A stretch of DNA of 58,022 bases. Origin: Nocardioidaceae bacterium (GTDB lineage: Bacteria; Actinomycetota; Actinomycetes; Propionibacteriales; Nocardioidaceae). Positions within the stretch are counted from its first letter, which is position 1. Each line of letters begins with the position of its first letter. This document shows, one piece after another, positions 2,074 through 51,842 of the stretch. Under the pieces are notes generated by a model. The model made no database searches, had not been told where the DNA came from, and was given only the letters and a program-made list of their open reading frames with translations. The stretch spans positions 1 to 58,022 of the forward strand of contig JAQSWV010000011.1 in NCBI GenBank assembly GCA_029266455.1. The letters are read 5' to 3'. The translations under genes were made by a program, and so were the position numbers.

Positions 2074-3553
2074 GACAGCCGGCTCCCGCGCAGTCGCGCA
2101 GGTCGTCCAGCCTGGCGGCCAGCGTTGCCCGCAGCTCCGCATGCGCCGGCTCCTCCGCGAGGTTCTGCAGCTCCTGCGGGTCTGCTGCGAGGTCGTACAG
2201 CTCCACCTCGCCGGACCCGTACTCCAGGTACTTGAGCCGGTCCGGCGTACGCAGCCCGGTGTAGGAGATGGCCGCGTTCTTCTCGAACGTGCCCTGCAGC
2301 AGGATGTCCCGCCGCGGGGCCCGTCCGGCGAACAGCGGCACCCCGTCGGCTCCCGGCATCGGCCCCAGACCGTGCCAGCGTGTGATGGTCGAAGCGAGAT
2401 CGTGCAGTCCCACGGGATGTTGTCGCACGACCCCGCTCGCCGGCACGCCTGGACCTGCCATCAGCAACGGCACCTTGGCCGACGGCTCGTAGCCCCAGAT
2501 CTTGCCCAGGGGGATGCGGTGCTCGCCGAGCATGAACCCGTTGTCGGAGACGAAGATGACGTTGGTGTCACCTAGTACACCTTGACGGTTCAGCGCTGCC
2601 CTGATCGCCATCATGCCGTCGTCGACCGACTGTAGGGACTCGGCTCTCCCCTCCGCGAACAGGTCGGTGGTCTCGATCGTGGGCGGCGTCATGGCTGATC
2701 GCTGCAGACCCGTTGGCTTGTCGCTCATGTCCGGCTCGTTGAAGGCCCTGGACCGGGGAGCCTGCAGGCCGTCGTAGTCGTGCTCGTGGCTCTCGTGCGG
2801 CACGGGTGCGGTCGCGACGGTCGGCGTCAGAGTGCTGTGCGGAGCGAGGTAGTTCACCAGCAGGAAGAAGGGTCCAGCGGCATTGCGGCGAATGAACCGG
2901 GTGGACAGGTCCGTCTGGACGGTGGTCTCGTAGCCCGCGATCGTGCGCGCCACCCCGTTGAGGTTGTACGTGGTGATCCCGTCGTAGGTCGCCAGACCGG
3001 GGCCGACACCGACCTCCCAGTCGCCGGCATGGCGATACCGGTACTCGTCGAGGATGCCGGCTCGCCAGTCGCTCCACCCGGGCGGCACCCACAGATGGTG
3101 GTACTGGTTGAGGTACTTGCCGACGTAGCCGGTCGACACCCCACTGTCGTTCAGTACGGTCGCCATCGTGAGGTCGTCGTCGAACGCGCTGACGCCGCCG
3201 GGCCTGATGCCGCCCGCCAGGTTGTCGTAGACGCCGGTGTTGTGCGCGTACTGACCGGTCAGCAGGGTTGCCCGGGCCGGACAGCACAACGGCGTCGGCG
3301 CGTACGCGGCGCTGAACCGCACGCCGTCGCGGGCGAGCCACCTGCGCGTCTTCGGCAGCACCTTCAGGTCGCTGGTCCGCATGTCGTCCACGAGGACCAG
3401 CACCGTGCTCGTCGGGACGACACCGGCGCCGGACGGGGAGGGCGAGGACGGACGTGCTGATCCCGACCCCCCGGAGAGCACGACCATGGACACTGCGACG
3501 GTGATCGCGCACACCATCGAGATCGGACGCGCGCGGGAAATGCGACCGTTCAT
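2063..3553 (-). CDS. Secreted sulfatase (arylsulfatase / N-acetylglucosamine-6-sulfatase-like)
   Basis: A 496-residue hydrolase of sulfate esters. The N-terminus has a basic start and a hydrophobic stretch (residues about 12-30), indicating export. The metal-binding start VLVLVDDMR precedes the Cys-type sulfatase signature LCCPARATLLTGQYAHNTGV. Its first Cys of C-C-P-A-R is the residue converted to formylglycine, so an FGE-type activator is needed; none is in the window. FVSDNGFMLGEH and GKIWGYEPS are further family blocks. It lies close to the cysDNC genes, but its substrate cannot be read from sequence. Its stop overlaps the end of galE on the other strand. Confidence 0.88.
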   Translation of the reverse strand: MNGRISRARPISMVCAITVAVSMVVLSGGSGSARPSSPSPSGAGVVPTSTVLVLVDDMRTSDLKVLPKTRRWLARDGVRFSAAYAPTPLCCPARATLLTGQYAHNTGVYDNLAGGIRPGGVSAFDDDLTMATVLNDSGVSTGYVGKYLNQYHHLWVPPGWSDWRAGILDEYRYRHAGDWEVGVGPGLATYDGITTYNLNGVARTIAGYETTVQTDLSTRFIRRNAAGPFFLLVNYLAPHSTLTPTVATAPVPHESHEHDYDGLQAPRSRAFNEPDMSDKPTGLQRSAMTPPTIETTDLFAEGRAESLQSVDDGMMAIRAALNRQGVLGDTNVIFVSDNGFMLGEHRIPLGKIWGYEPSAKVPLLMAGPGVPASGVVRQHPVGLHDLASTITRWHGLGPMPGADGVPLFAGRAPRRDILLQGTFEKNAAISYTGLRTPDRLKYLEYGSGEVELYDLAADPQELQNLAEEPAHAELRATLAARLDDLRDCAGAGCLRR

Positions 3554-3648
3554 GTGAAGCCCCCGTGTTGCGCTGCGGCCCGCGACCGGGCCCTACGCCA
3601 CGGTACGCGTGTTCGTCAGCGCGTCCACTGTCCGAGATGTCTGTCCGA

Positions 3649-4881
3649 TCAGTCCGCCAGCGGGAACTCCCGCGACAGCAGCGAGCGGGTGGCGGCGATC
3701 ACCACGTCCCGGTTGTAGGTGACGGTGAACTCGAAGGCGCGCTCGTCCTCGCGTACGACGGAGTCGTCGAGGTCGCGGGCGAGCAGCGCGGCGGCGAAGT
3801 GGGGGGTCAGCACGACGACGTCCCACTCGGCGCGGACCGGGTCGTCGGCGTCCAGGGCGATCCCGCGTACGCCCGTGACCGGCTCGGTGGGCATGTCCTC
3901 GCCGATGACCGAGACGTAAGCGAGATGCCGGGCCAGCTCCTGGTAGCGGCGGGCGGTGCCGGGCGTGAAGTACCTCGCCTCCTGGAACGACGCGATCACG
4001 ATGCACGCTTCGCCTTCGAGGGCGGCCTTTCGCTCGAGATGCTTGCTGACCTCGACCAGCAGCGGCTTGGTCGACCGGCGAAGAACCGTCGACTCGGGAA
4101 GGCAGGCGAACGGCGAGGCGCCGGGGGACCCGGGGACCTCCATACCCGGCAGCGGAAGCCGCGAGCCGGGCAGCCCCGAGAGCAGACTGGGGTCCGGTGG
4201 GCCGAACAGCCAGCCCTGGCCGAGCCGTGCGCCCATCGCCGCGGCCACGCCGAGGTGCTCGGCGGTCTCGATGCCCTCGGCCAGGATCACGGCGCCGGTC
4301 TGCTCGGCGTAGGCGTTGGCCGCGTTGACGATGCCGGCGATCGCCGGCGTGGGCCGCTGCTGCACCAGCCGCAGGTCCAGCTTGACCACCTCGGGGCGAA
4401 GCAGTGACATGAAGGCCAGCGAGATGTCGTCCGCGCCCACGTCGTCGAGCGCCAGCCGCCAGTCGGACTCCCGCAGTCGCTGCACGGCCGCGAGCAGCCT
4501 GGCGGGGCGGGACGCCAGCGCCCGCTCGGTGACCTCCAGGATCAGCTGCACCCCGTCGGGTGCCGTGCCGGCGAGGGCAAGCAGCTCGTCGACGGTCCGG
4601 TCGTCCAGCTGCTCGGGCTCGACGTTGACGAACAGGGACAGCGGCGCGGCGATGCCGGCGTTGATGGCACAGTCGAAGGCTGCGTTGCGGCACTTCGCGT
4701 CCAGCTCGCCCAGTCGCCCCGCCATGCGTGCCTGCGCGAACAGGGAGCGCGGCAGCTCACGCCGCGACGGCCCCCGGCACAGCGCCTCATAGCCGACGAC
4801 CGCTCCGTCGTCGAGCGTCACGATGGGCTGGAACTCGGCGGTGAGGAGTCCGCCGTCGAGAACGTGCGCGATCAACGACAT
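3649..4881 (-). CDS. EAL-domain protein with C-terminal DICT sensory domain
   Basis: A 410-residue protein. An EAL c-di-GMP phosphodiesterase domain covers roughly residues 1-235: YEALCRGP, LFVNVEPEQL, LEVTER, VVKLDL, AEGIETAEHLG and GQGWLFGPP. It is followed by a DICT domain (about 265-405), a sensory module that often accompanies GGDEF/EAL proteins. The loop-6 motif, normally DDFGTG, reads DDVGAD here. The aspartates remain, so activity is plausible but the loop is altered. No membrane segment is seen. Start ATG 4881 is preceded by GAAGG and gives the usual MSLIAHVLDGG start; a longer open frame upstream looks non-coding. A second c-di-GMP protein follows immediately upstream on the same strand. 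Confidence 0.82.
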   Translation of the reverse strand: MSLIAHVLDGGLLTAEFQPIVTLDDGAVVGYEALCRGPSRRELPRSLFAQARMAGRLGELDAKCRNAAFDCAINAGIAAPLSLFVNVEPEQLDDRTVDELLALAGTAPDGVQLILEVTERALASRPARLLAAVQRLRESDWRLALDDVGADDISLAFMSLLRPEVVKLDLRLVQQRPTPAIAGIVNAANAYAEQTGAVILAEGIETAEHLGVAAAMGARLGQGWLFGPPDPSLLSGLPGSRLPLPGMEVPGSPGASPFACLPESTVLRRSTKPLLVEVSKHLERKAALEGEACIVIASFQEARYFTPGTARRYQELARHLAYVSVIGEDMPTEPVTGVRGIALDADDPVRAEWDVVVLTPHFAAALLARDLDDSVVREDERAFEFTVTYNRDVVIAATRSLLSREFPLAD

Positions 4882-5002
4882 CTGGACCCGCCTTCTCGTC
4901 CCCGGTCGCCCCGGTCTGCGAAGATCGCGGGCCACCCCCACCTCAGCACAATGTCGCACAGATCAGGGCGTACGGCAGGGCGGGCGGCAGCGCGCAGATC
5001 GG

Positions 5003-6784
5003 CTACCGGGGTGGCGTGGTCAGCAGGGCGGCCGGCCGGCGCGGGGGCGCGGTCAGCAGGGCGGTCATGGCGCCGGCGGGCAACGGGCGGGACAGCAGGT
5101 AGCCCTGCCCCAGCACGCACCCCATCCCGACCAGCGCCGTCAGCTGGGCCTCGGTCTCGATGCCCTCGGCGAACACGAACCCGCCGAGCCCGAGCGTCAT
5201 CGCCACGATCGCCTCGGTGACCCAGCGGCCGCGGTCGTTGGCGATGTCAGCGACGAACGAGCGGTCGATCTTGAGGCCGTCGACGGTGAAGCGCCGCAGG
5301 TACGACAGCGACGAGTAGCCGGTGCCGAAGTCGTCGATGACCAGCTGGGGCCCCAACGCGCGCAGCTCGTCGAGGACCAGGTTGTGCTCGGCTGAGTCGC
5401 TGAAGATGCTCTCGGTCAGCTCCATCACCAGCGCCTGGGGGTCGAGCCCGGACTCCCGCAGTGCGGCGGTCATCCGCGACACCAGCAGCGGGTCGGCCAG
5501 CTCGCGGACGGAGAGGTTCACGCCCACGCTGAACTCGCGACCGCCGAGCTGCTGCTTCCACGCAGCGCACTCGCGGGTCGCCTGGCGGACCACGGTCTCG
5601 CCGACCCGGCCGATCAGGCCGGTGGCCTCCGCCACCGGGATGAACTCCTCGGGGGAGACGTAGCCGCCCTCCCCGTCCGGCAGCCGGCTGAGCGCCTCGA
5701 CACCCACGATCACCCGGTCGGCCAGCCGGTGGATGGGCTGGTAGTGCACCTCGAAGCTGCCGTCCTCCAGCGCCTCGCGCAGCCGCTTCTCGATGCGCGC
5801 GGCGGCGCGAGCGGCGGTGACCGTCTCGCCCGAGTGCAGGGCCCACTGGCTCCTGCCGGCGCGCTTGGCTGCGTACATGGCGGCGTCTGCGCGCCCCACC
5901 AGCTGCTCCGCGGACAGGCCGGCATCGTCGGCGAGGGCGATCCCGACGCTCGCCGACAGCGTCACGCTGTGGCCCTGGACGGTGTAGGGCTGGCTGAGCG
6001 AGGAGATGATCCGTCGGGCCAGGTCCGTGGGGTGCGCCCGGCCCGTCGACGGCAGGCCGGGGCACAGCAGCACGAACTCGTCGCCGCCCAGTCTGGTCAC
6101 GGGCTCGCCGTCGACAGCCGCCGCGCGCAGGCGTTCGGCGGCCCGGACGAGCAGCTGGTCGCCGCGCGCGTGCCCGTAGTCGTCGTTGACGAGCTTGAAG
6201 CCGTCGAGGTCGACGAACAGCAGCGCGACGCTGTCGCCGGTGGCGTCGGCCTCCCGGAGCGCCTGCTCGGTGGCCTGGAACAGCCACAGCCGGTTCGGCA
6301 GGTTCGTCAGCGGGTCACGCAGCGCGTTCTCGCGCAGCCGCCGCTCCGCGGCGCGCTGCTCGGTCACGTCGCGCATGACCACGACGGCGCCGACGACCTG
6401 GTGGCGGTTGCCCAGGATCGCCCGGCCCTGGTACGTGACCAGCCGGACGGGCAGGCCGACCGGTGCGATCACCATCTCGCCGTCCACCTCGTGCTCACGC
6501 AACGAGCGCCCCAGCGGCATCTCGTCGAAGGGCAGCGGGGTCATGCCGTCAGCCCGGTAGAGGTTCAGCCGGGCGGCCGCGAACTGGTCGGTCATGGAGC
6601 CGTCCGACGACGCGCCGTGGAACTCGCGGCAGACCCGGTTGAACACGGTCACCTGACCACTGGTGTCGCACGCCAGGATGCCGACGTCGACGCCGTCCAG
6701 GACCGCCTGGCTGACCGCCGCATGAGTGGCGTCGGCCTCGCGCCGCGGACTGTGCCGGGCGGCCAAGGTCACCGGATGCGTCAT
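5003..6784 (-). CDS. PAS-GGDEF-EAL c-di-GMP turnover protein
   Basis: A 593-residue cytoplasmic protein. The PAS-like sensor is at about 25-145, with VDVGILACDTSGQVTVFNRV. The GGDEF domain is at about 160-320 with an intact LGGDEF. The EAL domain is at about 335-580 with VEALSRLP, NLSVREL, MELTESIFSD, IDDFGTGYSSL, GLKIDRSFV, AEGIETE and GQGYLLSRPL, all of the usual catalytic positions. The residues before GGDEF (VDGEPVTRL) do not form the RxxD inhibitory site. The net direction, synthase or phosphodiesterase, cannot be read from sequence. The last residues repeat LLT-(A/T)-PPR. No transmembrane helix is evident. Confidence 0.9.
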   Translation of the reverse strand: MTHPVTLAARHSPRREADATHAAVSQAVLDGVDVGILACDTSGQVTVFNRVCREFHGASSDGSMTDQFAAARLNLYRADGMTPLPFDEMPLGRSLREHEVDGEMVIAPVGLPVRLVTYQGRAILGNRHQVVGAVVVMRDVTEQRAAERRLRENALRDPLTNLPNRLWLFQATEQALREADATGDSVALLFVDLDGFKLVNDDYGHARGDQLLVRAAERLRAAAVDGEPVTRLGGDEFVLLCPGLPSTGRAHPTDLARRIISSLSQPYTVQGHSVTLSASVGIALADDAGLSAEQLVGRADAAMYAAKRAGRSQWALHSGETVTAARAAARIEKRLREALEDGSFEVHYQPIHRLADRVIVGVEALSRLPDGEGGYVSPEEFIPVAEATGLIGRVGETVVRQATRECAAWKQQLGGREFSVGVNLSVRELADPLLVSRMTAALRESGLDPQALVMELTESIFSDSAEHNLVLDELRALGPQLVIDDFGTGYSSLSYLRRFTVDGLKIDRSFVADIANDRGRWVTEAIVAMTLGLGGFVFAEGIETEAQLTALVGMGCVLGQGYLLSRPLPAGAMTALLTAPPRRPAALLTTPPR

Positions 6785-6950
6785 GCCAGTCCTCGGTCTC
6801 GTCCGCGGGGTTGCGTCTTGACGATGAGAACACGGCGACGCGCCGACGAGGCCCTCATATCGCCCACCGCGTACGCAACCGGTCCATTCGGCCGGGAGGG
6901 TGGCACCACAAGGACGAAGTCGGTGGCCGAACCGGCTGACCTCCGACCGG

Positions 6951-7010
6951 TCAGTCGGCCACGGTGCTGATCAGTCAGCGACGGTGCTGATCAGTCGGTG
7001 ACGTTGTTGA
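6951..7010. repeat. Three tandem 20-bp units covering the cysN 3' end
   Basis: Units 6951-6970, 6971-6990 and 6991-7010 share the pattern TCAGTCrGysACGkTGyTGA in perfect phase. The unit at 6991 is the end of cysN and contains its stop; the two downstream units each provide another TGA in the same frame. This looks like a duplication of the gene's terminus. Confidence 0.7.
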
Positions 7011-8262
7011 TCATGCCCGCGCCGACGGTCACGCCGGTGGCCTCGTCCATCAGGATGAACGAGCCCGTCGTGCGGTTCGTCGCGTACGGGTCGGCCAGCA
7101 GCGGCACCTGGGTGCGCAGCTGCACCCGGCCGATCTCGTTGAGGCTGAGCTCGTCGGCGTCCTGGTCGCGGTGCAGGGTGTTGACGTCCAGCCGGTACTG
7201 CACGTTCTTGACCAGCGCCCGCCCGGAGCGGGTCGTGTGCTTGATGGCCAGCTTCTGCCGGGCCTTCAACGGTGCGTTGGTCATCCAGCACACCATGGCG
7301 TCGATGTCCTGCGTCGGCTGCGGCGCGTTCTGCGGACGGCAGATCATGTCGCCCCGGCTGACGTCGAGGTCGTCGGCCAGGCGGACCGTGACCGACATCG
7401 GCGGGTACGCCTCGGCGACCTCGGTCTCGAAGAGGTCGATGCCCTCGATGGTCGAGGTGAAGCCGCTCGGCAGCACCAGCACGTCGTCGCCCGGCTTGAG
7501 CACGCCGCCGGCGACGCGGCCGGCGTAGCCGCGGTAGTCGTGGTGCGAGTCCGACTTGGGGCGCACCACGTACTGGACGGGGAAGCGGGTGTCGACCAGG
7601 TCACGGTCGCTCGCCACGTGCACGTTCTCGAGGTGGTGCAGCAGCGACGGGCCCTCGTACCAGTCCATCGACTCGGAGCGCGTCACGACGTTGTCGCCCT
7701 TGAGCGCCGAGATGGGGATGATCGTGAGGTCGGGGATCGTCAGCTTGGTCGCGAACGAGGTGAACTCCTCGTGGATGCGCTGGAAGGTCTCCCGGTCGTA
7801 GTCGACGAGGTCCATCTTGTTGACGGCCAGGACCAGGTGCGGCACCCGCAGCAGCGACAGGATCACCGCGTGCCGCCGCGACTGCTCGGTCAGCCCGTGC
7901 CGGGCGTCGACGAGCACCAGGCCGAGGTCGGCGGTCGAGGCGCCGGTGACCATGTTGCGCGTGTACTGCACGTGGCCGGGGGTGTCGGCGATGATGAACT
8001 TGCGGTTGGGCGTCGCGAAGTAGCGGTAGGCCACGTCGATGGTGATGCCCTGCTCGCGCTCCGAGCGCAGGCCGTCGGTCAGCAGCGCGAGGTCGGTGTA
8101 GTCGTACCCCTTGTCGGCGCTGGTGTGCTCGATGGCCTCCAGCTGGTCCTCGAAGATCGACTTCGAGTCGAGCAGCAGCCGGCCGATCAGCGTCGACTTG
8201 CCGTCGTCGACCGAGCCTGCGGTGGCGAACCGCAGCAGGTCCATGGTGCGTGCGGCGGTCAT
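6991..8262 (-). CDS. cysN: Sulfate adenylyltransferase subunit 1 (GTPase)
   Basis: This 423-residue GTPase subunit of ATP sulfurylase couples GTP hydrolysis to formation of adenosine 5'-phosphosulfate with CysD. The P-loop GSVDDGKST, the switch motif DTPGH, NKMD and SALKG are all present. The downstream beta-barrel domains resemble EF-Tu. It ends without a fused kinase domain; the APS kinase is a separate gene at 10,426-11,706. The start ATG overlaps the cysD stop in TGATG, which indicates translational coupling. The last 20 bp are part of a tandem repeat. Confidence 0.95.
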   Translation of the reverse strand: MTAARTMDLLRFATAGSVDDGKSTLIGRLLLDSKSIFEDQLEAIEHTSADKGYDYTDLALLTDGLRSEREQGITIDVAYRYFATPNRKFIIADTPGHVQYTRNMVTGASTADLGLVLVDARHGLTEQSRRHAVILSLLRVPHLVLAVNKMDLVDYDRETFQRIHEEFTSFATKLTIPDLTIIPISALKGDNVVTRSESMDWYEGPSLLHHLENVHVASDRDLVDTRFPVQYVVRPKSDSHHDYRGYAGRVAGGVLKPGDDVLVLPSGFTSTIEGIDLFETEVAEAYPPMSVTVRLADDLDVSRGDMICRPQNAPQPTQDIDAMVCWMTNAPLKARQKLAIKHTTRSGRALVKNVQYRLDVNTLHRDQDADELSLNEIGRVQLRTQVPLLADPYATNRTTGSFILMDEATGVTVGAGMINNVTD

Positions 8263-9203
8263 CAGAAGTAGCCCTCTCGCTTGCGGTCTTCCATGGCGGC
8301 CTCGCTGAAGCGGTCATCGCCACGGGTGGCGCCGCGCTCGGTCACGCGGGCGATGGCGACCTCGGCGATGATCTCGTCGATGGTCGACGCGGTGGACTCC
8401 ACGCAGCCGGTCAGGGTCAGGTCGCCGACGGTACGGAAGCGGACGGTGCGCTCGCTGACCTCCTCGCCCTTGCGCAGCGGGTTGGCCTCGTGCTCGGTGA
8501 GCAGCATGCCGTCGCGCTCGAACACCCGGCGCTGGTGGGAGTAGTAGATCGACGGGATCTGGAAGCCCTCCCGGCCGATGTAGTCCCAGATGTCCAGCTC
8601 GGTCCAGTTGCTCAGCGGGAAGATCCGCATGTGCTCACCGGCCCGGATGCGGCCGTTGTAGAGGTCCCACAGCTCGGGACGCTGCATCTTGGGGTCCCAC
8701 TGGCCGAACTCGTCGCGGTGGGAGTAGACGCGCTCCTTGGCGCGGGCCTTCTCCTCGTCGCGGCGGCCGCCACCGAAGGCGGCCGTGAATCCGTCCTCCT
8801 CGATGGCGTTGAGCAGCGTGCCGATCTGCAGCCGGTTGCGGCTGGTCTTGCCGTCGTCGACGACGACACCGTCGGCGATGGCCTGCTCGACGCTGGCCAC
8901 GATCAGGCGTACGCCCAGCCGGTTGACCCAGTGGTCGCGGGTCTCGAGCACCTCGGGGAAGTCGTACCCGGTGTCGACCTGCAGCACCGGGAAGGGGATC
9001 TTCGCCGGGTAGAAGGCCTTCTCGGCCAGCCGCATCATGACGATGGAGTCCTTGCCGCCGGAGAACATCAGCACCGGCTTCTCGAACTCGGCCGCCACCT
9101 CACGGAAGATGTGCAGCGACTCGGCCTCGAGCTCGTCGAGCTGGGAAAGCCGGTAGTCGGCGTGCGCCGGGGGCGCAGGCGACGTAGCGGTGGTGTCTGG
9201 CAT
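8262..9203 (-). CDS. cysD: Sulfate adenylyltransferase subunit 2
   Basis: A 313-residue catalytic subunit of ATP sulfurylase in assimilatory sulfate activation; it works as a complex with CysN. It is a PAPS-reductase-type PP-loop protein with LMFSGGKDSIVMMRLAEKAF near residue 50. The blocks FPVLQVDTGYDFPE, FGGGRRDEEKARAKER, FPLSNWTELDIWDYI and RFRTVGD are typical of CysD. ATG 9203 was chosen because AGAAGGAG lies about 10 nt upstream; an in-frame extension to 9269 lacks family character. It is followed by cysN with a one-base overlap. A TACGCT -10-like element about 40 bp upstream may give it its own promoter. Confidence 0.95.
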   Translation of the reverse strand: MPDTTATSPAPPAHADYRLSQLDELEAESLHIFREVAAEFEKPVLMFSGGKDSIVMMRLAEKAFYPAKIPFPVLQVDTGYDFPEVLETRDHWVNRLGVRLIVASVEQAIADGVVVDDGKTSRNRLQIGTLLNAIEEDGFTAAFGGGRRDEEKARAKERVYSHRDEFGQWDPKMQRPELWDLYNGRIRAGEHMRIFPLSNWTELDIWDYIGREGFQIPSIYYSHQRRVFERDGMLLTEHEANPLRKGEEVSERTVRFRTVGDLTLTGCVESTASTIDEIIAEVAIARVTERGATRGDDRFSEAAMEDRKREGYF

Positions 9204-9336
9204 AGATGGGGGCTCCTTCTGCGATGCGCGACTTGTCAGCGTACCCAACGAGGGCGGCGTTGTTGGCACGGACCGAGATATCCGGGCCGTTCGGCCACGG
9301 TTCCCGACCGGCGGCTATGACGTCCGGGCGAGGGGG

Positions 9337-10341
9337 TCACGGCTCCCTCGTGGACGTGCCGTCAGGGGTGTCGCGCTGGTCGGACGGACCCGCCGGCGCG
9401 GGTGGCCGGTCCCTCGCTGCCGTCGCGGCCGCGGCCTGACGCTGCCGCCTGGCCCGGCCGCGGAAGGGCGGCAGCCCGTACCGGCGACGGATGGCCGCCC
9501 AGGCGAACGTGCCGAGGATCATGGCGAGCACCCCGGTGACCAGCGCGATCACCGGGTCGACGCCGACCAGGCTCAGACCGGTGATGAACAGCAGGAACAC
9601 GATGCCCCGTCGGATGACCGTCTGCGGCACCCGGTTGGCGAGCTTGGAGCCGGCGTAGATACCCGGAATCGACCCGATCACCAGCGGGATCAGCACCTCC
9701 CAGTCGACCCCGCTCACGATCACGTGGCTGATGGCCGCGGCGAGGACCAGCGGCACGGCCTGGACCAGGTCGGTCCCGACCAGCTTCACGGCCTGCAACC
9801 CGGGGTAGAGCAGCAGCAGCGTGACCATGATCACCGAGCCCGACCCCACCGACGTGATGCCGACCAGGGCGCCCCCGACGGCGCCGACCGCGATCGTGGC
9901 CAGCGGCTTGATCGGAGGGTCCTCGTCAGGGCGAGCGGCGTTGAGGGTGATCTCCCGCAGGTTCACCAGCAGCCGCAGCACGTACGTGCCGGCGGCCACC
10001 AGCAGGGCGCACCCGATGGCGAGCTTGACGAAGTCCTGCTGCTGCTCGGGGCTGCCGACGGCCCGGATGATGAAGGCGCCGGCGAATGCGCAGGGCACCG
10101 AGCCGATGCCGAGCCACCCCGCGAGCTTGAGGTTCGGTGACCCCTCACGCCAGTGCACGCCGGCACCGACGCTCTTGTAGATGGCGGCCGCGACCAGGTC
10201 GTTGGCGACCGCTGCCGTCGGGTTGACGCCCAGGAAGATGAGCGCCGGCGTCATCAGCGCGCCGCCGCCCATGCCGGTCATGCCGACCACGGTGCCGATC
10301 AGCAGGCCTGCAATCCCGATCAGCAGCATGCTCTGGTCCAT
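9337..10341 (-). CDS. TSUP (TauE/SafE) family membrane permease
   Basis: A 334-residue integral membrane protein with about eight hydrophobic helices. The N-terminus MLLIGIAGLLIGTVVGMTGM runs into GGGALMTPALIFLGV, the glycine-rich repeat typical of the TSUP family, and IVGITSVGSGSVIMVTLL-like text forms the second half repeat. It lies between cysC and cysD on the same strand. Transport of sulfate, sulfite or another sulfur compound is therefore likely, but the substrate and direction are inferred from context only. The C-terminal ~30 residues are basic then proline-rich and probably cytoplasmic. Confidence 0.85.
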   Translation of the reverse strand: MDQSMLLIGIAGLLIGTVVGMTGMGGGALMTPALIFLGVNPTAAVANDLVAAAIYKSVGAGVHWREGSPNLKLAGWLGIGSVPCAFAGAFIIRAVGSPEQQQDFVKLAIGCALLVAAGTYVLRLLVNLREITLNAARPDEDPPIKPLATIAVGAVGGALVGITSVGSGSVIMVTLLLLYPGLQAVKLVGTDLVQAVPLVLAAAISHVIVSGVDWEVLIPLVIGSIPGIYAGSKLANRVPQTVIRRGIVFLLFITGLSLVGVDPVIALVTGVLAMILGTFAWAAIRRRYGLPPFRGRARRQRQAAAATAARDRPPAPAGPSDQRDTPDGTSTREP

Positions 10342-49796: not shown

Positions 49797-51617
49797 TCAG
49801 GCGGGTGCCGTGACCAGCCGGTCGTGTCCAGCCTCGAGCAGCGCCGTTGCCCCGGGATGGACATCCAGTACCAACGGCTGCAGCGCCTGCAGGCCCGTGG
49901 CGAGGACACCGGGCGACACACCTCTGTGCACGAGCAGCTCCCGAAGCCAGATCACGAAGTCGGTGAACACCGACGGGTCGTCGGCCAGCATCGCCGCACC
50001 GAGGAACTGGACGATGAACACCAGATCCTCACGGGTGCGGCTCAGCTGCCGCGAGTCGTAGTCGGCCATTACCGGCAGGTGGTCGGCGAGCTCGGCGAGC
50101 GCCGCAGCTCCCAGCGTCTCGGCGGCCAGGAACAGCCGCATGCCGGCGGCATCGACCGTGGTCGGCCCACGGCTGACCGAGGGCGGGCTCGCCCGCCACT
50201 CGGCGAGGAGGGCAGCGGCCTCGCCCGCGGTCTGGGCCCAACCGTCCGCGCCGAGCCGCTGCGCCCGGCGGGAGTCCGTACCGAAGGCGCGACCGCCCAT
50301 CATCACCGGGACGCCCACGCGATGGGCGGCGTCCGCCAGGTGCACCGCTCCGGGGAAGAAGGTGGGTACTGAGCAGGAGATGGCGAGCGAGTCACTTCCC
50401 GAGCGCACGAGGAAGTCGGCGACCACGTCGGCCGGGGTCGACGCACCGAGGACCCGCACGTCGACGCCGTGGGACCGCAGCGACTCGCCGAACATCTGCG
50501 CGGCCAGGGAGTGCCAGTCCCCCTCGGCGCAGGTCACCACCGTCACCCCGCCGTCGCCGGCCGGCGACGAGCTCTCTCCCGTCAGCGCGTCCAGGGCGGC
50601 GGCGGCGACACCGCTGGCCAGGTGCTCGTCGGCGGCGGTCAGCTCGTTCACGTGCCAGCGATCGCCGACCTGCCGCTGCGCAGCAGCAAGCAGGTCCACG
50701 ACGATCCGCTCGCGGGGAACCCGGTTGTCGAGCAGGTCGAGGGTGAGCCGGACGGCCGGTTTGCGCCTGCCGAGGACGGCGTCGGACAGGTACGGCTCGA
50801 CGCAGTCCAGCGGAGCCTCGCCCGCGAGCGGGTGCTGAGCGCTGGCCCAGACCCATTGGTCACGTCCGGCGTCCTTGGCCTGGTACAGGGCCGCGTCGGC
50901 CAGGGCGATCGTCTCGTCGGCCTTCCCGACCGACCGGGCGATCCCGGCCGAGAACGTCACCGGGAACGGCCGGTGGACGAGCCACTCGGCCCGAATCCGC
51001 TCGAGGAAGACCTCGGCCCCTTCTGGCGACCCGACCACGGCGGCGAACTCCTCACCGCCGAAGCGTCCGACGAAGTCCCGGCCCCGGGCTGTGGACCGCA
51101 GCACCCTGCCGAACACACGGAGGACCTCGTCGCCCGCCGCGTGCCCGAAGCCGTCGTTGACCTTCTTGAAGTGGTCGAGGTCGAGGAGGATGACCACGTC
51201 GTCGTCGGTGAGCCGGCCGAGCGCCCGGTCGAGCATGCGACGGTTGGACAGCCCGGTGAGGGCATCGGTCGACGCGGACTCCGCGAGCCGCTCGGCCCGG
51301 CCGCTCAGCTCGAGGGCGTGGCTGGCGTCGAGCAGGAACGTCGTCAGATGCCGGTCGAGCAGTGTGCGCGCCTTGCTCCCGAGCGGCGCATCCACCAGAA
51401 CCGGCTCCCCGTAGCCGAAGGACACGTCGGCCAGGATCGCGCTGGTGTCGGCCGTGTCGGGCGAGACCAGGGAGCCTCCCAGTCCGCGGACCAGGTCCTC
51501 TGCGGCGCGCCTGGCCTCAGCCGCCCCGCTCAGCCTCAGCAGGGAGCGCGTTGCCTCGTGGACCACCACGGGGACCTCCGCAGGCGTGCCGGGGGGAATG
51601 TCGCCCTGGTGCGCCAC
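49797..51617 (-). CDS. Diguanylate cyclase with CarH-like cobalamin-binding domain
   Basis: A 606-residue cytoplasmic protein. Residues 1-110 are a sensor-like alpha/beta region. The GGDEF domain (about 115-262) has FGGEEF at 186-191 and an inhibitory RGRD five residues before it, so it should make c-di-GMP. Residues about 285-475 look like a cobalamin module: the cap helix has W321 then nine residues then E331-H332 (W-x9-EH), as in CarH-type photoreceptors. The Rossmann part has GDWHSLA (His369 as lower ligand; usual final Gly is Ala). A helical domain follows (about 490-590). GTG start with GGGAGGA upstream. Confidence 0.82.
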   Translation of the reverse strand: MAHQGDIPPGTPAEVPVVVHEATRSLLRLSGAAEARRAAEDLVRGLGGSLVSPDTADTSAILADVSFGYGEPVLVDAPLGSKARTLLDRHLTTFLLDASHALELSGRAERLAESASTDALTGLSNRRMLDRALGRLTDDDVVILLDLDHFKKVNDGFGHAAGDEVLRVFGRVLRSTARGRDFVGRFGGEEFAAVVGSPEGAEVFLERIRAEWLVHRPFPVTFSAGIARSVGKADETIALADAALYQAKDAGRDQWVWASAQHPLAGEAPLDCVEPYLSDAVLGRRKPAVRLTLDLLDNRVPRERIVVDLLAAAQRQVGDRWHVNELTAADEHLASGVAAAALDALTGESSSPAGDGGVTVVTCAEGDWHSLAAQMFGESLRSHGVDVRVLGASTPADVVADFLVRSGSDSLAISCSVPTFFPGAVHLADAAHRVGVPVMMGGRAFGTDSRRAQRLGADGWAQTAGEAAALLAEWRASPPSVSRGPTTVDAAGMRLFLAAETLGAAALAELADHLPVMADYDSRQLSRTREDLVFIVQFLGAAMLADDPSVFTDFVIWLRELLVHRGVSPGVLATGLQALQPLVLDVHPGATALLEAGHDRLVTAPA

Positions 51618-51842
51618 TCGCCCGTCCTCCCGCCGCTCGGCCGTACGGGGCCGAATATGGTCCCACGATACTCCGCTGAGTGACGGCTCCTTTGCGCTAT
51701 GTCACGCTATGCGCAGGTCGCTGCGACGTTTCCGGCCCGTTCGCCGAAGAGGCGGGCCGATCGGAGGCGACCGGCGCGGGTCGGCAGGGTCACTCCGTAG
51801 GTCAGCGTCCGAGTGCCGCCAGCAGTTGGCAGCCCCGTCGCT

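Follow-up and report, generated by a model that had tools for sequence, protein, structure and literature searches.

The window analyzed here, 58,022 nucleotides of a Nocardioidaceae contig (JAQSWV010000011.1), contains on its minus strand an open reading frame encoding a protein of 606 amino acids. Pfam recovers a GGDEF domain together with B12-binding_2 and B12-binding domains, confirming the cyclase–cobalamin domain fusion that a preliminary description had read from the sequence. Neither the first ~110 nor the last ~130 residues have a Pfam match. An RxxD inhibitory site is present, again as described; it lies five residues ahead of the GGEEF motif, the canonical spacing. Elsewhere in the window, also on the minus strand, are genes for an EAL-DICT protein (3649-4959) and a GGDEF-EAL protein (5003-6784), and the genome encodes around 20 GGDEF domains.

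Table 1. Features of the gene encoding the 606-residue protein, in window positions.
Feature	Position	Strand	Basis
Whole gene, N-domain/GGDEF/B12/bilin-globin (predicted diguanylate cyclase (DGC)-photocobilin), 606 aa, GTG start	49797..51617	-	ORF, Pfam, PDB search
GGGAGG ribosome-binding-like site ahead of GTG start	51626..51631	-	sequence
N-terminal domain, aa 14-112	51282..51578	-	conservation, without Pfam match
GGDEF diguanylate cyclase domain, aa 115-254	50856..51275	-	Pfam E 8.9e-30
RxxD inhibitory site R178-G-R-D181	51075..51086	-	sequence
GGEEF active site, aa 187-191	51045..51059	-	sequence
B12-binding_2 four-helix cap, aa 281-345	50583..50777	-	Pfam E 9.4e-10
W321, cap Trp = SasPcob Trp61 / CarH Trp131	50655..50657	-	alignment
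E331-H332 = SasPcob Glu71-His72, dimer interface	50622..50627	-	alignment
B12-binding Rossmann domain, aa 358-467	50217..50546	-	Pfam E 7.3e-18
H369, predicted lower axial cobalt ligand = SasPcob His108	50511..50513	-	alignment
Bilin-binding globin domain (photoglobin/BBD), aa 480-606	49800..50180	-	PDB search, model superposition
D531 = SasPcob Asp270 (biliverdin rings A-C); His in AbDPcob	50025..50027	-	alignment; PMC10979010
W557 = SasPcob Trp296, packs on ring D	49947..49949	-	alignment; PMC10979010

The preliminary description had also pointed to the W-x9-EH signature of CarH and to a lower-ligand histidine, and both are present. The spacing W321-x9-E331-H332 is exact, with the CarH W-H-x8-E-H aligning over the same motif, and H369, within EGDWH (D367-W-H369), is aligned with the histidine of the CarH GxxH. 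In a protein of such composition W-x9-EH is expected by chance about 0.012 times. It is absent from MetH and from two other corrinoid-type domains of the same genome. Our comparison covered 98 non-redundant photocobilin loci. Residues were counted in an alignment of 90 photocobilins, and the cap Trp, the EH pair and the lower-ligand His are each found in 89 of the 90. Judged from these sequences, the motif is not a chance occurrence; W-x9-EH is a signature of light-responsive domains (PMC10979010, PMC11796333). The genome encodes an ATP:cobalamin adenosyltransferase, so adenosylcobalamin (AdoCbl) can be made from cobalamin. H322, which adjoins the cap Trp and is found in 7 of the 90 photocobilins, aligns with the His after the cap Trp in CarH, which we take to be His132, the bis-His light-state ligand. 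A bis-His light state is possible for the 606-residue protein. Two further proteins of the genome carry W-x9-EH B12 domains (L003 and L007, G000:C104 and G000:C93), the former resembling a MerR/CarH regulator. These bring the organism's candidate B12 light sensors to at least four.

The best PDB match by phmmer, 8j2y (E 1.2e-117), spans residues 267-597, the B12 part and the C-terminus; 8j2w (E 4.5e-53) and CarH 5c8a (E 1.6e-12) are also matched. 8J2Y is the crystallized B12/bilin module of AbDPcob, a diguanylate cyclase photocobilin from an Acidimicrobiaceae bacterium (Zhang et al. 2024, PMC10979010). A template-free AlphaFold2 model of the 606-residue protein has a mean pLDDT of 91.7 and a pTM of only 0.62, so that the relative placement of its domains is not predicted reliably. 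Superposition of the model on 8j2y covers 327 residues at Z 39.6 and an rmsd of 1.9 Å; SasPcob is matched at Z 33.3 and, by the GGDEF part, known cyclases at Z ~22. The C-terminal region forms a five-helix globin domain that superposes on biliverdin-binding domains, and the sequence of residues 470-606 contains no Cys for covalent bilin attachment. Structural modeling had been proposed as a check on whether the motifs belong to a cofactor pocket, and its outcome did not refute the proposal: residues 267-599 of the model fit the crystal structure with bound AdoCbl (rmsd 1.9 Å), with the motif residues located by sequence alignment. The protein shares its domains, motifs and fold with AbDPcob and is its kin. 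Alignment and model together identify it as a fusion of diguanylate cyclase and photocobilin, in the AbDPcob architecture.

Cyclase turnover of AbDPcob rises more than 10-fold after illumination, and the protein has a green/red spectral response; at full length it binds AdoCbl, which lowers its activity relative to the apo protein, and it binds biliverdin weakly, at ~20% occupancy (PMC10979010). Homology to this light-activated enzyme supports the light- or B12-controlled c-di-GMP synthase proposed in the preliminary description, which missed the bilin-globin domain as a third sensory part. Its core inference, a CarH-type cobalamin sensor controlling a c-di-GMP synthase, is well supported by that homology. 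The coupling was there thought not to be widely described, but it has already been demonstrated experimentally in AbDPcob (PMC10979010). What is new is a second fused member, one with Asp at position 531.

The N-terminal domain has no sequence match in Pfam or the PDB. Its model is a confident, weakly GAF-like fold ending in a long helix that runs to the GGDEF domain, and the best fold match, the GAF domain of KdpD, is not significant (E 0.066). The cyclases that partner other photocobilins conserve this domain, which is also fused directly to photocobilins in L138 and L130; it is possibly a coupling element. L138 (G000:C115:30000-45000, 3303-9640) holds a second photocobilin of the window's genome (7755-9314, plus strand), with the same N-domain and no GGDEF. 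An antibiotic biosynthesis monooxygenase (ABM) gene follows it within ~20 bp, and it is divergent to KaiC, KaiB and a PAS-GGDEF-EAL gene, making it a candidate light sensor adjoining clock-type genes.

Among the 98 loci, L059 alone shares the fusion. Its photocobilin region matches 8J2Y with zero branch length and we therefore take it as the genome of AbDPcob, so that the window protein would be only the second fused DGC-photocobilin found in this set. In quick trees the two are sisters (SH-aLRT 94 for the photocobilin, 91 for the cyclase) and are joined by L150, which is not fused (support 98), a pattern that fits one fusion event. About 25 of the 98 loci have a separate homologous GGDEF gene, with the same N-domain type, directly upstream on the same strand. 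Several of these genes overlap by 4 bp, and in many cases an ABM gene or fusion, IsdG-like, lies between. The neighborhood of N-domain-GGDEF, ABM (separate or fused) and photocobilin is seen at L058, L060-L063, L065-L067, L069-L071, L077, L078, L148 and L157 (ABM only in L157). Among the papers searched, none combines GGDEF, antibiotic biosynthesis monooxygenase and B12-binding, although Schneider et al. 2022, on photoglobins, may already report the neighborhood. The partner cyclases keep GG[DE]EF throughout and form a group separate from 21 further GGDEF domains, of which the window's genome supplies 19 (2 label changes versus 14.6 in shuffles). The upstream homologous genes and this separate cluster thus give independent support for cyclase–photocobilin coupling. 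In a genome of the same family, a 944-residue open frame (L011, G049:C4) that falls among the partner cyclases is 40% identical to the N-domain-GGDEF part over residues 21-258; the stretch examined there holds no photocobilin.

The weak biliverdin binding of AbDPcob is attributed by its authors to a His in place of SasPcob Asp270 (PMC10979010). In the window protein, D531 occupies the Asp270 position in an ungapped alignment; SasPcob numbering was checked at Trp61, His108, His137 and Trp296, all at the same offset. The Asp270-type residue is found in 71 of the 90 aligned photocobilins and the Trp296-type residue in 88. SasPcob His137, which contacts biliverdin across the dimer, is replaced by Val. 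Because D531 is kept, unlike in AbDPcob, red as well as green sensing may occur, and the window protein is a better candidate for cyclase switching by red light and biliverdin. We predict from its sequence that it binds biliverdin better than AbDPcob does and responds more to red.

The red-light part is nevertheless the least certain, since the genome, 97% complete, yielded no PF01126 (canonical) heme oxygenase as a chromophore source, and the bilin pocket may be empty in vivo. The family is also missing from most genomes of the surrounding clade. These observations favor a B12-only green-light switch whose globin domain has a structural role, with biliverdin left unused by the organism, as does the low biliverdin occupancy of AbDPcob. 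Against it, D531 and W557 are retained, as are their counterparts in most photocobilins, where AbDPcob has lost the Asp, and many genomes without PF01126 still encode the Asp, which suggests that bilin comes from another source. We consider the B12-only switch a serious possibility, though less probable than the AbDPcob-like mechanism set out below.

The ABM domains near related photocobilins have the heme-degrading monooxygenases HmoB, MhuD and IsdI among their nearest solved relatives, and score below the cut-off of NCBIfam HmuQ. IsdG-type heme oxygenases require an N-W-H triad (PMC5557675). The ABM domains have S-Y-H, or S-W-H in two, so that membership of the canonical IsdG type is unsupported. 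Canonical heme oxygenase occurs in 0 of 15 genomes with an ABM beside the photocobilin versus 27 of 52 without (Fisher p 0.00016), but p is 0.11 inside the window's clade alone, and the contrast may therefore stem from shared ancestry and from MAG incompleteness. It is conceivable, but rather unlikely, that the lineage has a three-part light-signaling operon of cyclase, IsdG-like ABM and photocobilin, in which the ABM would be an unrecognized bilin-forming heme oxygenase supplying chromophore where the canonical enzyme is absent.

Taken together, the alignments, the model and the analogy with AbDPcob indicate that the 606-residue protein very probably works as AbDPcob does; from that analogy we infer cofactor binding, light response and the direction of regulation. 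In the dark, AdoCbl would be bound base-off/His-on through H369, its adenosyl group packed on W321 and E331-H332 where two subunits meet head to tail in the dimer, and the N-terminal cyclase would be kept in an arrangement of low activity. The Co-C bond would be broken by green light, or by red light that biliverdin absorbs in the pocket of the C-terminal globin (D531, W557); the cap helix with E331-H332 would shift and the assembly open. The cyclase would then convert two GTP to c-di-GMP, and RxxD would give product inhibition.

Two other readings concern the input and the output of this scheme. The protein might sense cobalamin availability, AdoCbl loading lowering cyclase activity and light being incidental. 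The lower activity of AdoCbl-bound AbDPcob relative to apo protein would fit, as would the contact of the W-x9-EH cap with the adenosyl group, but the large effect in AbDPcob is the light activation, and W-x9-EH marks light-responsive domains (PMC10979010, PMC11796333); we find this reading improbable. That the GGDEF domain is inactive or purely regulatory is hardly credible, given its intact GGEEF and RxxD, its structural match to active cyclases and the retention of GG[DE]EF across the partner cyclases.

The predicted DGC-photocobilin may also be of use in optogenetics. Comparing the operons adds independent genetic evidence that photocobilins work with this cyclase family, and raises the question of the bilin source in genomes lacking heme oxygenase.

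With CarH/LitR, the MerR repressors (5C8A etc.), the protein shares the W-H-x8-E-H AdoCbl cap, the base-off His ligand and the light-sensing principle. CarH, however, carries a MerR DNA-binding domain and lacks a bilin globin, and the predicted output here is c-di-GMP synthesis; Pfam finds no MerR domain in the window protein, and the NCBIfam CarH equivalog scores 57 bits, far below its cut-off of 400. The globin of the window protein belongs to the lineage of the photoglobins (Schneider et al. 2022) and BBAG-2 bilin-binding globins (PMC10151467), non-covalent biliverdin binders without a Cys-containing motif, which differ in being mostly stand-alone or joined to other partners. SasPcob of Saccharothrix syringae (8J2W/8J2X) has the same B12 and bilin-globin module, and the equivalents of its Asp270, Trp296, Trp61, Glu71-His72 and His108 are all present in the window protein; SasPcob stands alone without a cyclase, is ~36% identical and differs at His137. 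AbDPcob has the same four-part order of N-domain, GGDEF, B12 and bilin globin, and the same W-x9-EH, DxH and biliverdin-pocket Trp. Its identity to the window protein is 60% in the photocobilin region, 67% in the cyclase domain and 45% in the globin, the least conserved part. The two differ where the window protein has D531 (His in AbDPcob) and H322, at the CarH His132 position (Tyr in AbDPcob).
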